Source: an uncultured Ignavibacteriota bacterium
GTDB taxonomy: Bacteria > Bacteroidota > Ignavibacteria > UBA10030 > UBA8401
Reading direction: 5' to 3'
Assembly: GCA_903884005.1 (NCBI GenBank)
Contig: CAISDA010000072.1
Location: 159,522-223,521 of the forward strand
DNA length: 64,000 bases
Both the position numbers and the translations under genes were made by a program. Positions 11,027 through 56,370 of the stretch are shown piece after piece. Numbering within the stretch: the first letter of the stretch is position 1; every line of letters begins with the position of its first letter. Under the pieces are notes generated by a model. That model saw nothing but the letters and a program-made list of their open reading frames with translations. It was not told where the DNA came from and made no database searches.

Positions 11027-12742
11027 TTAAAATGGCCTGCTTATGCGGATGAACACCATCGGCGGTGCGCCCTTATCCGTGCGCCACGCAAATCCCAGAC
11101 GCGCCGTGCCGTCGTGCCAGCCGAGCGCGAAGCCGAGATCCGATTTCATGGTCGATATCGAAAATTTCTGAAAGCCGTCTGTGACTTCGGCCTGCGTGTC
11201 GGCGAAGTGCGCGCTGCCGGCATCGGCGAACACCATGAGCGTGAGAAATCCAGGCCAGAAACTGACGTTGTCGAAGACGCTGCCGTTCAATGCATATTCC
11301 ACATTGCCGAGCGCCATGCGGTTGCCCGCGAATTCCTTGAACCCGAATGCGGGAAGCGTATTGACGCCGCCGACTTCAAAACCTTTTTGAACAATGTAAT
11401 CCCCCTTCAGCGAACCGAACCTCACGCGCATATTCAGGTTGTCGTATCTCGAGAGCGGCTGGTACCGGCGTATGTCCACCACGGCACGTGTAAAATCAGA
11501 GTTGCGGAGTGCGGACTCCTCCCCCGTTATCACATCGTACTTCAGCGTGCCGATCTCGATCTGCGCAAACGTATTCCACCCGGCGCTTGAGCGTTTTTTT
11601 TCTTCCACGGTGCTGATGCCGGCGGTGATGACGGTGCTCTTCATGGTTCCTTCATTCACCATGGGATTGTCGCGGAAGCCGTCTTTATTCTTAAAGAGCG
11701 ACCAGTTCGCGCGTTTCTCGAGAGACTCGTATTCATCATACCGATACTCGGCGTTGAGCATCGTTGTGAGTTCGGGCGTTTTCGTATACCATGCACCATG
11801 ACCGGAGAACCCGGCGCGCTGAAAATAATCGCGGTAGTCTTCGCGCAGGAAGAATGCTGCGGCGGTGTTCTCGCCCTGGGTGATGATCCAATCGTCCTTC
11901 GTGTCGGTGAGATTATGGCCTTCGGCTCCGAGCTCGAACAGGTGTGCGCCTGTCGCAAACTGCCGGTCCAATCCCAACTGCCCGCGCCAGCGGTGCGTCA
12001 GAAAGCCGTAGCCCAGCGATCCGTACCCGGAAATGATGCGGTGGCCGTCCCAGTAGAATTTCTTATCGGACGCAAGGCCGAGGTACACGCCTTCCACCCT
12101 GTTGTACCGAAAAACGAAATTATCGGAATAGAGATTTTCATGAAGCCAGCGCGGAGCGAACGAGTACGCCGGCTTGCGCGGAAAGTGACGCTTGACAAAA
12201 CCGCTCCGGTCGGACGACGATTCGCGTATCTCACCCTCGACCACGCCGTTCTTTTCGCGGATCACCGTGCCGCCGATCGCGTGCGCGTTCCCGGTGATCC
12301 GACCTCCGTCCTTGACAATGATCGTACCGCGCAAGACCGAGGCGTTGCCGCGGAGCACTCCTTCGACACTCAATCGTCCATCCTTCACGAACACATTGCG
12401 CTCCACGATCTCGCTGCGGGGCACGAGATAATCACCTGTGATGATATCGAGCGAGTCGGACGGTTCGAATTGATCCTCGATGTCGGATTTTTTCGCCTCG
12501 TTTTTGCGTAGCGATTGTTCGATATTCGATTGGATTTTGCCGATCAGATTTTCAAGAAACGAATCGAATTTCTCGTCCGAGTCCGTCGTGTCGTTCTGGG
12601 AATTCTGCCTGAGTGACAACACCGAGTTCGTTGAATCCCCCTGCGTGCTCTGCAAGAGAAGATGATTTTCCCGAGCCGAGGCATCGCATACTGAGACGAG
12701 AAAGAGACAGGCAAACAATGTGATTTTGATCGGGATCGGCAT
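11027..12742 (-). CDS. Outer-membrane Omp85-like barrel with N-terminal bactofilin-like beta-helix
   Basis: A 571-residue exported protein. A signal peptide covers residues 1-23 and a polar, helix-prone linker (about 30-95) follows. Residues 98-172 are short repeated strands (VEGVLRGNASVLRGTIIVKD...RITGNAHAIGGTVI), resembling the polymer-forming bactofilin or left-handed beta-helix fold. From about 205 on the sequence is beta-barrel-like. Its C-terminal third has surface-antigen (D15/Omp85) features: GGVNTLPAFGFKEFAGNRMALGN in place of the usual GxxxLRGY...GN, a VFADAG strand, and a terminal Phe. No POTRA domain is evident. GAGGA stands 6 nt before the ATG. Its role is unknown; anchoring, secretion or lipid/protein insertion are possible. 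Confidence 0.75.
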   Translation of the reverse strand: MPIPIKITLFACLFLVSVCDASARENHLLLQSTQGDSTNSVLSLRQNSQNDTTDSDEKFDSFLENLIGKIQSNIEQSLRKNEAKKSDIEDQFEPSDSLDIITGDYLVPRSEIVERNVFVKDGRLSVEGVLRGNASVLRGTIIVKDGGRITGNAHAIGGTVIREKNGVVEGEIRESSSDRSGFVKRHFPRKPAYSFAPRWLHENLYSDNFVFRYNRVEGVYLGLASDKKFYWDGHRIISGYGSLGYGFLTHRWRGQLGLDRQFATGAHLFELGAEGHNLTDTKDDWIITQGENTAAAFFLREDYRDYFQRAGFSGHGAWYTKTPELTTMLNAEYRYDEYESLEKRANWSLFKNKDGFRDNPMVNEGTMKSTVITAGISTVEEKKRSSAGWNTFAQIEIGTLKYDVITGEESALRNSDFTRAVVDIRRYQPLSRYDNLNMRVRFGSLKGDYIVQKGFEVGGVNTLPAFGFKEFAGNRMALGNVEYALNGSVFDNVSFWPGFLTLMVFADAGSAHFADTQAEVTDGFQKFSISTMKSDLGFALGWHDGTARLGFAWRTDKGAPPMVFIRISRPF

Positions 12743-33960: not shown

Positions 33961-35322
33961 TTAAAAAGCGGCGCCGATATTAAATATGCCCTCGCCGCCC
34001 TTGAAATTTTCGCGAAAGGCATATTCAAGACGAAATACAAAACTGTACGCAAACAGCATATGCACGCCCGCGCCGAAGCCCGAGGATACGGAATGAATGT
34101 TCGGCCCATCGTGCCGGTTCCACACCGTGCCGGCATCGGCGAAGAGGGCGAGATTGAACGCATAGCGTATGTCGCGAAATTGTTCGATCGGCATGAGCGC
34201 GACCCGGTAGTACCGCGGAGACAAGAGTGGTATGTGAAGCTCTGCCGAGGTTCCGAGGATCTGCTCGCCTTCCAGAATGTCGTTGTAATGCCCGCGGATG
34301 CGGTCGCCATATCCGAAATACATATGCGCGTAATTCGGCACACGGCCCCCGGCGGCCATGTTTCCGAAGGCTCGTCCGGTGATGACTACATCAAAAAAAG
34401 TCGGAATGTACCGCCGGTAATCGAATGAAAAGCGTTCGTAATCGACGTCGCCGCGAAAGCCGGATTTCGACATGCCCAGGCGGACAAGCGATCCGCGTGA
34501 AGGATACTCTGCGAGGTCCCTCGTATCGTATTTATATCCGGTATTGACAGATACAAACTGGTCCGTTCCATCGGAGGAGAGTGTGCGTCCGACTTTGTTG
34601 TCCGAGACGGTCAATCGAAAATATTCGACATCCACAGACACTGCGCTGAACCGGGAAATTCGTCTGCCCAGGCCGACATCGGCATCGCTTCTGTATTCGT
34701 CGAAATTCACACCGCCGGCCTGCGACACAAGGCTTTTATTCTTTTGAATACTATAGGAAAACCGGGAGGACAGGAAGAGCGAGTTATCGGAGGAAACGGC
34801 CGGATTATAAAAACTGACGGCGATGAACGGATCGTATCCGAAGACACATTGAATCGCGGCCTGCACCGCACGGCCTCCGACATTATTGTGTGCGACGCCG
34901 AGTCCGTAGTAGATGTCGTGCCAATTGTTGTCCTTCAGGCCGACAACCGGGAACGGATAAAAATACCAGCGCTCGTTGAGGGTCACCAGCAGGCGCGCGG
35001 ATGCCGAGTCCGCCGGGAGCACGGTGATGTTCACTTTTGTAAAGAGCTGCAGGCTGTAGATGCGTTCAATATCGTACTGCACGGCGTCGTGCGTGATCAC
35101 CGCGCCGGGTTTGAGAGACATTTCACGCTCGACGACGTACTCTTTCGTGACGTCGTTGCCCGAGAAGACGATCTCTGACACGCGCAGCGTTGAATCGGGA
35201 TACGCCTCCTCAGCGTCCGAGGCATGGAGCACCGCAGGAGCTGCGCAGAGGTATGCAGCACATAAAAAAAAGGCTGAGAAAATAGTCACCCAGCCTCTGA
35301 TATAGGAACGGTGTTGTATCAT
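33961..35322 (-). CDS. Omp85-superfamily outer-membrane protein with a single POTRA domain
   Basis: 453 residues. A signal peptide (about 1-35) is followed by one POTRA-like domain (about 46-118: VSEIVFSGNDVTKEYVVEREMSLKPGAVI ... FTKVNITVLP). A C-terminal surface-antigen barrel (about 120-453) carries VFGYDPF, FADAGTVWNRHDG and a terminal Phe. BamA has five POTRAs and TamA three, so this is not the main assembly factor. It could insert or export a specific partner. It follows the CoA-binding protein gene by 51 nt. Confidence 0.85.
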   Translation of the reverse strand: MIQHRSYIRGWVTIFSAFFLCAAYLCAAPAVLHASDAEEAYPDSTLRVSEIVFSGNDVTKEYVVEREMSLKPGAVITHDAVQYDIERIYSLQLFTKVNITVLPADSASARLLVTLNERWYFYPFPVVGLKDNNWHDIYYGLGVAHNNVGGRAVQAAIQCVFGYDPFIAVSFYNPAVSSDNSLFLSSRFSYSIQKNKSLVSQAGGVNFDEYRSDADVGLGRRISRFSAVSVDVEYFRLTVSDNKVGRTLSSDGTDQFVSVNTGYKYDTRDLAEYPSRGSLVRLGMSKSGFRGDVDYERFSFDYRRYIPTFFDVVITGRAFGNMAAGGRVPNYAHMYFGYGDRIRGHYNDILEGEQILGTSAELHIPLLSPRYYRVALMPIEQFRDIRYAFNLALFADAGTVWNRHDGPNIHSVSSGFGAGVHMLFAYSFVFRLEYAFRENFKGGEGIFNIGAAF

Positions 35323-53445: not shown

Positions 53446-56271
53446 TTAAAAATCCCATCCGAAGAAAAACTGATAAAAGATGCCGCTGTCCAGCGCGCTG
53501 AAATTATTGATGATGCGTTTGCCGACATCGTACCGAAGCACGAGCACACCTCCGAGACTCCAGCGGAGGCCGGCGCCGATGCTGCCGAGAGTCTCTTTGT
53601 ACTCGTTGTCCCAGGTGTTCCCTGCATCACAGAACAGAGCGCCGCGGAAAGCGCCGAGCCCGATGCCGCCGAACGGGAACCGTATTCCCACATCATCCAC
53701 GAACGGAAAGCGGAGTTCGACGCTCGTAAGCCACAGCCGCTTCCCTCTCATCGACCATCGGGGATAGCCGCGCAGGTCCCAACTGCCGCCAAGAATGAAG
53801 CGCCGCGCTTCGGCTCCTTCGTTCATCATGATCTCGAACCGCGAGGCAAGCGCTGTACGGAGCCCAAGACGGAAATACTGCCTGTAATCGCCGATGAGCG
53901 TATAATAATTGACGCTGCCGTTCTGGAGATCTTTGGTGTACGCGGCGCTCGCCAGGAATCGCGATCCGTCAAGCGGACCGGTCGGCCCCCAGAGCGAATT
54001 ATCGTGAACGAAGGAAACTGACATCGATCCGATGACAGCCCGTCGCGGCCTGAATCCAACGATGACCTCCTTGTCGCTGTTACTGAGGCTCAGCGCCGCA
54101 TCGACGCGCTCAAATTTTGTGAGCGGATAACTTGCGGCAAGATATCCGCCGTAGGAGCGCTCGAAATAATATTCGTCCGGGTCGGAAAGATCGTAGCGCC
54201 TGCCCGAGAAATGGAATATGCCCGTGGCATAGTTCATCCGATTGCCGAGCGAAACGCGGGAGACCGCGATATTGAAGCTCTCGAGGAATTCGCTGGATGA
54301 TTCCGCGTTATTATAGAGAAGAAAATAATATTGATCGTTGCCGAGCAGGTCGCTCACCGCCACAACCGCACCGCCGGAAGTGCCGAAGACAGGATCCGTC
54401 GACACATCGCTCTGGGCGATGTCGAGCGAATATTCGCCCGTATACGGCAGCGAGACGACGGACGTATCGCCCTCCACCGAACGCGGTGTGTATGCGCCGG
54501 CAGCCGCCGGTGGGAACGCAGGTTGCACATCCGATGCTTCGATGCGCTGTGCGGCGCTGTCGATGAATTGGAGACGGAAACTGTAATGTTCGAAATCGGC
54601 GAAGACGAGCATGGTGCTGTCGGTCCAGCACGGGTCGAAGGCGGCGTTCGAAAAACGAGTCACCTTACGCAGCGCCGGCAGCTCGCCAGTGCCGATGTCC
54701 GCCGTTCGAAGCGCCCAGATATTCTGTGCGCCGTCGATGTTCGAGGTGCACGTGATGTAAGCGCCGTCGGGAGAAAATGAGGGGGAATAAAAATTATTCG
54801 CCCCCGATGTGATGGCCGAGATCTCCCCGGTCGCGACGTCGTATCGGTAGAGCAGATACGTCTGCTCCAGGCCGAGCGCGTTTCTGTCCGAGCTGAACAC
54901 GATGGATGCTCCGTCCGGCGACCAGGCCGGATCGCGGTCGTCGTACACATCGTGTGTGAGCTGCGTGAGCGTGCCGCCAACGGCGTCTGTCACATAGAGG
55001 TCCATCCTTCCCGATTTTCCGATGGAGGAAAATACGATGCGTTTTCCGTCCGGCGACCAGCATGGCGATGCCAGCACCACAAGACTGTCGAACTTCAGCG
55101 TTCGCACGAGCGCGTTCCCGACGACAGCATAGAGATGCAGCACGTCGTTCTCGCCGCTCTTCGTCACGAACGCAAGGATGCCGTCGCGGTTGATGCTCAG
55201 TTTGCTCTGGAAGAGATGGAATGTTTCAAAGTCGCTCGATGTCTCTCCCTTCACAACCAGCTGCGGCTCCCTCTCCTCGGCAGACACGCTGTCTCCGGGC
55301 ACGCCCACGCGATAGATGGAGGTGTACCCTGTATAGTTGCCGATAAAGTACACTTCGCCCTTCCCGTTGCGCCGAAAAAACACGGGTTTCGTGTTGAACC
55401 CTTTGGCGAGGATCGTAGTCGTGGTCCGGCCGGCAAAATCGCTCTTCGCAAGCACGGGATAATAGCGTTTCTTCAGCGCGTAGATCCACTCGTCATCCAG
55501 TTCCTGATAATTTTTTCCGATCGTGACCTTCATCACGTCGCTGAACGACGTCGAGCGCCAGAGGTTCTCCATGAGCAGCACGATCTTTTCCTCACCGTAG
55601 CGCGACGCAATGAAGTCCAGCAGGTTCTGGCCCTCTTTGTACATCACGAAAGAGCCGTAGATCTGCTCGATATCGGACACGGGGACGAGGTAATTGTTGA
55701 GCACAGCGTCGCGCATGACCATCTCGGCCTGGTCGTCCGGCACAGTCGACCACGCCTCGGCAAGCCCTTCGGTGAACCAGAGCGGCGGCGTGCGGTCCGA
55801 GGGAACGCGATGGTCGGCCAGGACGTGATTGATCTTGCTCGTCATGAAGACATGCACGAGTTCGTGGCGGATCACGTGACGGAAGTGCCCCAGCGAACCG
55901 TCGGCCGGTATCACCACCCGCCCTTTCATGAATTCAAAGAATCCGCCGACGCCTTCGGGAATAAATCCGGGCGCAGTGTTGGTCTGTTCGAAATGGAGAT
56001 GCGAACTGTAGAAGATGAGCGGGATCTTGGTCAGGACGGTGTGATTGAACTTGCTTTCCAGAATGCGGAAACTCTCCTCGGCGAAGTATGCACCCTGCTC
56101 GGCAAGGTCCTTCATCTCGGGATAATAATAGACATCGAAATGCCGTGTGTGGAGGACGTGCCACTCGAAGGAGGTATACTGGACCTTGTTTTGGCCGAAG
56201 TAGTAAAACTGCGCATTCGCCCCCTGGCAGAGCGCCAGCGTGCACAGCACCAACAGGAGCCGCCGGATCAT
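53446..56271 (-). CDS. Metalloprotease-like / TolB propeller / outer-membrane barrel fusion protein
   Basis: 941 residues with a signal peptide (1-21). Residues about 35-200 form a gluzincin-type domain with HELVH at 136-140 and the third ligand candidate Glu168 in WFTEGLAE, so the zinc set looks complete. Residues about 290-620 are TolB/PD40 propeller blades (SPDGKRIVFSS, WSPDGASIVFSSDRN, FSPDGAYITCTS). From about 690 a surface-antigen-like barrel includes GSWDLRGYPRWSMRGKR, ALFCDAGNTW and a terminal Phe. The domains should sit in the outer membrane with protease and propeller either periplasmic or outside. The start at 56271 is preferred to 56346 for the signal peptide. Function not known. 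Confidence 0.85.
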   Translation of the reverse strand: MIRRLLLVLCTLALCQGANAQFYYFGQNKVQYTSFEWHVLHTRHFDVYYYPEMKDLAEQGAYFAEESFRILESKFNHTVLTKIPLIFYSSHLHFEQTNTAPGFIPEGVGGFFEFMKGRVVIPADGSLGHFRHVIRHELVHVFMTSKINHVLADHRVPSDRTPPLWFTEGLAEAWSTVPDDQAEMVMRDAVLNNYLVPVSDIEQIYGSFVMYKEGQNLLDFIASRYGEEKIVLLMENLWRSTSFSDVMKVTIGKNYQELDDEWIYALKKRYYPVLAKSDFAGRTTTTILAKGFNTKPVFFRRNGKGEVYFIGNYTGYTSIYRVGVPGDSVSAEEREPQLVVKGETSSDFETFHLFQSKLSINRDGILAFVTKSGENDVLHLYAVVGNALVRTLKFDSLVVLASPCWSPDGKRIVFSSIGKSGRMDLYVTDAVGGTLTQLTHDVYDDRDPAWSPDGASIVFSSDRNALGLEQTYLLYRYDVATGEISAITSGANNFYSPSFSPDGAYITCTSNIDGAQNIWALRTADIGTGELPALRKVTRFSNAAFDPCWTDSTMLVFADFEHYSFRLQFIDSAAQRIEASDVQPAFPPAAAGAYTPRSVEGDTSVVSLPYTGEYSLDIAQSDVSTDPVFGTSGGAVVAVSDLLGNDQYYFLLYNNAESSSEFLESFNIAVSRVSLGNRMNYATGIFHFSGRRYDLSDPDEYYFERSYGGYLAASYPLTKFERVDAALSLSNSDKEVIVGFRPRRAVIGSMSVSFVHDNSLWGPTGPLDGSRFLASAAYTKDLQNGSVNYYTLIGDYRQYFRLGLRTALASRFEIMMNEGAEARRFILGGSWDLRGYPRWSMRGKRLWLTSVELRFPFVDDVGIRFPFGGIGLGAFRGALFCDAGNTWDNEYKETLGSIGAGLRWSLGGVLVLRYDVGKRIINNFSALDSGIFYQFFFGWDF

Positions 56272-56370
56272 CGGTCCGCGCTTCCATGTTGCACTCACAG
56301 ATGTCGTAATGCCGTGCAGAGAAGACATGCTGCTCTCACTCGTCATTGTTCGGCAGAAGGCGTGTGCTGA

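Follow-up and report, generated by a model that had tools for sequence, protein, structure and literature searches.

The 571-aa protein described here (Table 1), encoded within the window (the whole 64,000-nucleotide stretch of DNA that was analysed), joins a POTRA-less Omp85-fold barrel to a short N-terminal beta-helix with the bactofilin fold. The domain order, predicted folds, conservation, single-origin-compatible tree and purifying selection are established computationally, and the fusion is old and conserved, not an artefact. For its function, the reading that we favour, and to which we give about an even chance, is a POTRA-less Omp85-fold barrel whose module serves for docking or limited self-association in the periplasm.

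Table 1. Features of the gene and its product (positions in the window; residues of the 571-aa protein)
Feature	Position	Strand	Residues	Basis
Whole gene, bactofilin-fold module N-terminal to an Omp85-fold barrel that lacks POTRA	11027..12742	-	571 aa	Open reading frame, relatives, model
Putative signal peptide, cut likely after ASA	12674..12742	-	1-23	Read from sequence
Amphipathic helix	12473..12580	-	55-90	Model (low confidence) and helical moment
Bactofilin-fold beta-helix, about four turns of 18-19 residues	12218..12451	-	98-175	Models, 6rib match, periodicity
Strands of the module			98-102, 105-107, 116-120, 123-126, 134-137, 140-143, 153-156, 159-162, 172-175	AlphaFold2 model
Low-confidence linker	12128..12217	-	176-205	pLDDT <50
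16-strand Omp85-fold barrel, last residue Phe	11030..12127	-	206-571	Model, structure matches, conserved columns
Omp85 loop 6 equivalent, GFEVGGVNTLPAFGFKEFAGNRM	11315..11383	-		42-row comparison

Domain order and the POTRA-less barrel

The reading frame, which opens with ATG, is taken to be real because it has 41 homologous rows beside it in alignment A1 (one of them, L027, is incomplete and ends at its contig edge) and because pdxJ adjoins the gene in 21/21 members of f1, the family to which this genome belongs, where f1, f2 and so on are family labels for the relatives' genomes. The AlphaFold2 model built from the 42-row alignment has a mean pLDDT of 80.0 and a pTM of 0.65, and runs from a signal-peptide helix through a second helix, the beta-helix and a linker to a barrel that extends to the C-terminus. 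The signal-peptide stretch commonly ends in AQ among relatives. The second helix is modelled with low confidence (ten-residue pLDDT means of 42-63); its helical moment exceeds that of shuffled sequences in this protein (p 0.0125), and the amphipathic character is significant (p<=0.05) in 32 of the 40 members long enough to be scored (two of the 42 were left out as too short), namely 26/30 with the module and 6/10 without. With the whole protein as query, a PDB sequence search gave no match, and NCBIfam returned a chance-level match only (flgK_ends, E 0.05).

The original prediction had read the C-terminal portion as an Omp85-type barrel without POTRA domains, and both points are borne out. The strand count, suggested then as a check, is 16 in the AlphaFold2 model, with a short element at 455-457 omitted and 471-473 joined to 475-486. 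Foldseek matched the barrel to BamA, TamA and Sam50 (best E 5.0e-12), and VIA-align placed Sam50, TamA and BamA at Z 17.5-21.0 among the matches listed. On the N-terminal side of the barrel the model has the helix and the beta-helix without a POTRA domain, and no POTRA family is found among the 18 Pfam families matched by the 42 members at E <=1.

By sequence profile, Pfam Omp85 (PF01103) does not match this protein at E <=10 and matches 23/42 members at E <=1, scoring >24 bits in five of seven chosen proteins (L068, L064, L075, L035 and L070, not L048 or L010). The barrel region is shared with DUF5686 proteins: PF18939 matches it in 41/42 members at E <=1, with 30.2 bits (E 2.1e-7) for this protein, below the cut-off of 39.2, and 45.3 bits for the relative L068. 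A DUF5686 paralogue in the same genome, L048, is 785 aa long, compared with 571 here, and carries CarboxypepD_reg, whereas this protein carries the bactofilin module. Two more proteins with Pfam Omp85 above cut-off are encoded in the window, at 33961-35322 and 53446-56346, both on the minus strand.

VRGF/Y is the Omp85 loop 6 motif (PMC12611786, as given in the part of that paper available); at its expected place this protein has LPAF, and the 42 rows have L/M/I/V, P/H/N/Q, A/G and F/Y/R. Together they follow the pattern GGxx[TS][LMIV]-x-[AG]; where VRG[FY] has its arginine they have P, H, N or Q, and VRG[FY] is absent from loop 6 in 42/42 rows. K469 is invariant in the same alignment. The missing motif bears on the idea that the beta-helix stands in for POTRA domains, its strand edges receiving incoming chains while the barrel inserts or exports proteins. 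Such a role would agree with Sam50, TamA and BamA as the nearest barrels and is the conservative hypothesis for uncharacterised Omp85 subfamilies (PMC4104836, in the portion available), but it is made improbable by the absence of VRG[FY] in every row and by the relatives (f2, f3 and L044) that keep the barrel without the module.

The beta-helix module and its relation to bactofilins

A bactofilin-like beta-helix had been proposed for residues 98-172, and the model confirms it, with a slightly longer extent (to residue 175): the region is neither disordered nor of another fold, but a regular beta-helix with ten-residue pLDDT means of 90-96 across 101-170 and lower values at both edges. Modelled alone, the module reaches a pLDDT of 96.3. 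Its periodicity score is best at a lag of 19 and is equalled in 0/5000 shuffles, the weakest of the 31 modules compared being that of L027, equalled in 20/500. When 234 chains were compared with the module by VIA-align, Thermus bactofilin came first (6rib, Z 10.9, 1.7 Å over 74 aligned residues; 6ria, Z 9.4), the next family being fusolisin at Z 7.6, with Ag43 structures at 6.2-6.6. Foldseek found no solved structure at E <=0.001, and placed the autotransporter fragment TibA first (E 0.073), Ag43 fifth and 6rib at rank 17 (E 0.64). A PDB search with the module profile returned YdcK as best match (E 1.9e-4), then bactofilin 6ria (0.016) and 2n3d (0.09). Phage-spike, YdcK and ice-binding beta-helices were considered as identities for the module, and all were weaker than bactofilin.

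The Foldseek order, together with the succession of beta-helix, linker and C-terminal barrel as in autotransporters, is what could be expected if the barrel carried the N-terminal beta-helix outward for display as a surface adhesin, in a type V-like manner. The classical autotransporter barrel has 12 strands. The barrel here is of the 16-strand Omp85 type, the module spans only 78 residues, and VIA-align sets both bactofilin structures above fusolisin and Ag43, all of which argue against surface display and leave it very unlikely.

Because this copy scores weakly against Pfam Bactofilin (PF04519; E 0.57 for the whole protein and 0.014 for the module alone, under the 27.9-bit cut-off) and lacks a Pfam Omp85 match, the assignment of both module and barrel rests on relatives and on predicted structure. 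PF04519 matches 23/31 modules at E <=1 (best 1.6e-7), and in 41 genomes it finds 12 orthologues at E <=0.01, four of them above cut-off (28.1-29.9 bits), although one of these four, L010, has 26.1 bits in another search, just under it. Aligned by hhalign, the 31 modules and 23 canonical bactofilins of relatives give a probability of 70.7 and an E of 3.8e-5. Searched against 46 proteins with filters off, a profile of the 23 canonical bactofilins recovers every one of the 31 proteins that carry the module (E 1.7e-5 to 0.33; this protein 0.046), 0/11 module-less members and, at E 0.53 and 3.3, two DUF5686 paralogues. Conversely, the module profile reaches 2/30 canonical bactofilin loci at E <=1e-3 (L117, 1.8e-6; L118, 1.6e-4). 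The module and bactofilins (PF04519; Thermus 6ria/6rib; L081 of the same genome) share the beta-helix, a G-rich turn pattern and a weak detectable sequence relation, but the module here is putatively secreted, shorter and fused to a barrel, and the polymerisation Phe is not kept in the aligned column.

The protein itself is not among the matches to the Bactofilin profile in its own genome. Four that are, L082-L085, fall under cut-off and read as FapA/DUF342-like, pilus-like or repeat proteins. The canonical bactofilin L081 (C88:91573-91860) has a long QQQQ-repeat tail, which is absent in the orthologues whose C-terminal ends were compared.

Distribution and history of the fusion

Across 60 genomes (its own included), a close relative is present in 42 (with E up to 3.0e-81), 9 have nothing beyond a weaker match in long frames of 772-1016 aa, and 9 have no match; a scan of genome contigs gave a single locus, L032. 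The same fusion was sought among these relatives, as had been suggested, and it is conserved: 31/42 members, this protein counted, carry the module (f1, 21/21; f6, 10/10), which is missing from f2 (0/5), f3 (0/5) and f5 (0/1). It is also present in f10 (3/3) and f22 (4/4), at E 1.2e-13 to 1e-19 with a profile built without those two families, and was matched in 0/26 fetched members of f15, f24, f33, f34, f41, f43, f45, f47 and f51. The region before the module is enlarged in f22 (L067-L070), where it resembles, by eye, a coiled coil of ~100 residues.

More widely, the family profile matches at least 147/395 genomes at E <=1e-8, with DUF5686-type paralogues counted in, three candidates per genome scored and part of the matches fetched. 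The module profile matches at least 24/395 at E <=1e-5, with up to 14 candidates per genome scored; 17 of these belong to this barrel family (E up to 8.9e-14), ten of them, from f1 and f6, matching partly by construction, while the other seven are weaker and comprise six short bactofilin-like proteins and one 404-aa beta-helix protein. The last (L160:1153-2364) reads as a signal peptide, a long beta-helix and several transmembrane helices, and as extracytoplasmic.

A barrel tree was built from 79 rows (75 of the family and 4 of DUF5686), each family frame contributing its final 375 residues, which for the incomplete row L027 include some of the module; the root is placed at the midpoint, and some inner forks have weak support. 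The four DUF5686 rows lie outside the family clade, and f2, f3 and L044 are without the module while the barrel is kept. The module label requires three changes on this tree, compared with a shuffled mean of 26.8, and 0/500 shuffles are as low, a pattern consistent with a single gain and two losses. The dN/dS values are similar in the two parts of the protein, at 0.132 for the module and 0.136 for the barrel in the comparison with L032, and at 0.041 and 0.068 between L012 and L010, these ratios being rough since synonymous differences are high (0.54-0.67 in module and barrel). Carriage by 31/42 members, a tree that fits one gain and two losses, and similar dN/dS are the grounds on which an artefact is rejected.

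Beyond f1, pdxJ adjoins the gene in 9/10 f6 loci (one f6 locus, L027, is a short contig) and lies near it in 2/5 of f3. A second adjoining gene in the f1 loci was read as a nuclease, and loci outside f1 and f6 mostly have other neighbour genes. No functional partner gene was found in the compared loci or in seven wider loci of other families read by eye. The module-less L095, L097 and L098, from three families, have as neighbours a POT-type transporter and a gene resembling aspS (names by reading).

Polymerisation and the possible role of the module

The original prediction further raised the possibility that a helix polymerising in the periplasm could order barrels or tether the envelope. In such a scaffold, modules would stack end to end like bactofilin filaments, and barrels would be ordered in arrays or bands. 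The match to the filament subunit 6rib, the hhalign relation to canonical bactofilins, the finding of L117 and L118 by the module profile and the presence of an aromatic near both ends of most modules (26/31 at one end, 28/31 at the other) all speak for it. Against it, the module has 78 residues compared with 101 in 6rib, the module profile reaches only the two canonical bactofilin loci given above, and the hhalign column of the bactofilin polymerisation Phe is V/I/L in 31/31 modules, a test that is not final because the alignment register of solenoids is uncertain. The Caulobacter BacA variant F130R, in which Arg takes the place of this Phe, does not polymerise (PMC12448750, in the part available). 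In this protein, the two end-aromatic positions are occupied by Ile and Glu. Polymerisation is disfavoured by the Phe column, the BacA variant and these replacements taken together, and ordering of barrels also by the two lineages that dropped the module yet kept the barrel; filament formation by the module is not supported by the computed evidence, and we consider a scaffold unlikely. Weak self-association may be compatible with the same evidence, and the end aromatics of the relatives may serve assembly. A bolder version, in which periplasmic modules, aided by the preceding helix or coiled coil, would stack in ordered arrays and pattern the envelope of the Bacteroidota lineage as a first outer-membrane bactofilin system, is quite unlikely. 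The earlier interpretation stands for its bactofilin-like helix, Omp85 barrel, lack of POTRA and conserved fusion, and not for polymerisation that orders barrels.

In the docking or limited self-association reading that we prefer, the barrel would have the Omp85 fold, form a DUF5686-related branch and lack POTRA. The N-terminus, placed in the periplasm because of the barrel fold, would bear the amphipathic helix and the short beta-helix of bactofilin fold, tethered by a flexible linker. The module would be a rigid handle that docks an envelope partner or joins two to few copies, and would be neither a filament subunit nor a POTRA-type substrate chaperone. The barrel probably works without it, since two lineages have lost the module. 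Counting against a handle are the lack of a partner gene in the loci compared, the low-confidence helix, the Foldseek rank of 17 and the end aromatics in most modules.

Ten Omp85 subfamilies are set by their N-terminal domains, and some proteins have none (PMC4104836, in the portion available). The noNterm and alternative-N-terminal subfamilies of Omp85/TpsB likewise have an Omp85-fold barrel without POTRA, and N-terminal domain swaps (WD40, patatin, metallo, none) are known there (PMC4104836, same portion), whereas loop 6 is of the LPAF type here and VRG[FY] there. The words bactofilin and beta-helix are absent from the main text of that paper, the supplementary domain tables aside. In a limited literature collection, no paper joins bactofilin with Omp85, or polymer-forming cytoskeletal proteins with an outer-membrane fusion, and none mentions DUF5686; titles and abstract openings, including those of papers on periplasmic or signal-peptide bactofilins, describe no bactofilin-barrel fusion. 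Since that main text lacks bactofilin and the literature searched has no such fusion, a bactofilin module on an Omp85-fold barrel is, within the reach of these searches, a new architecture, though one of a known kind.

The set of N-terminal domains that take the place of POTRA on Omp85-fold barrels thereby gains a cytoskeletal-type fold. Because natural relatives exist with and without the module on a tree compatible with a single origin, its role is testable by comparison of orthologues. If modules self-associate, the fusion would tie a bactofilin-type scaffold covalently to the outer membrane.
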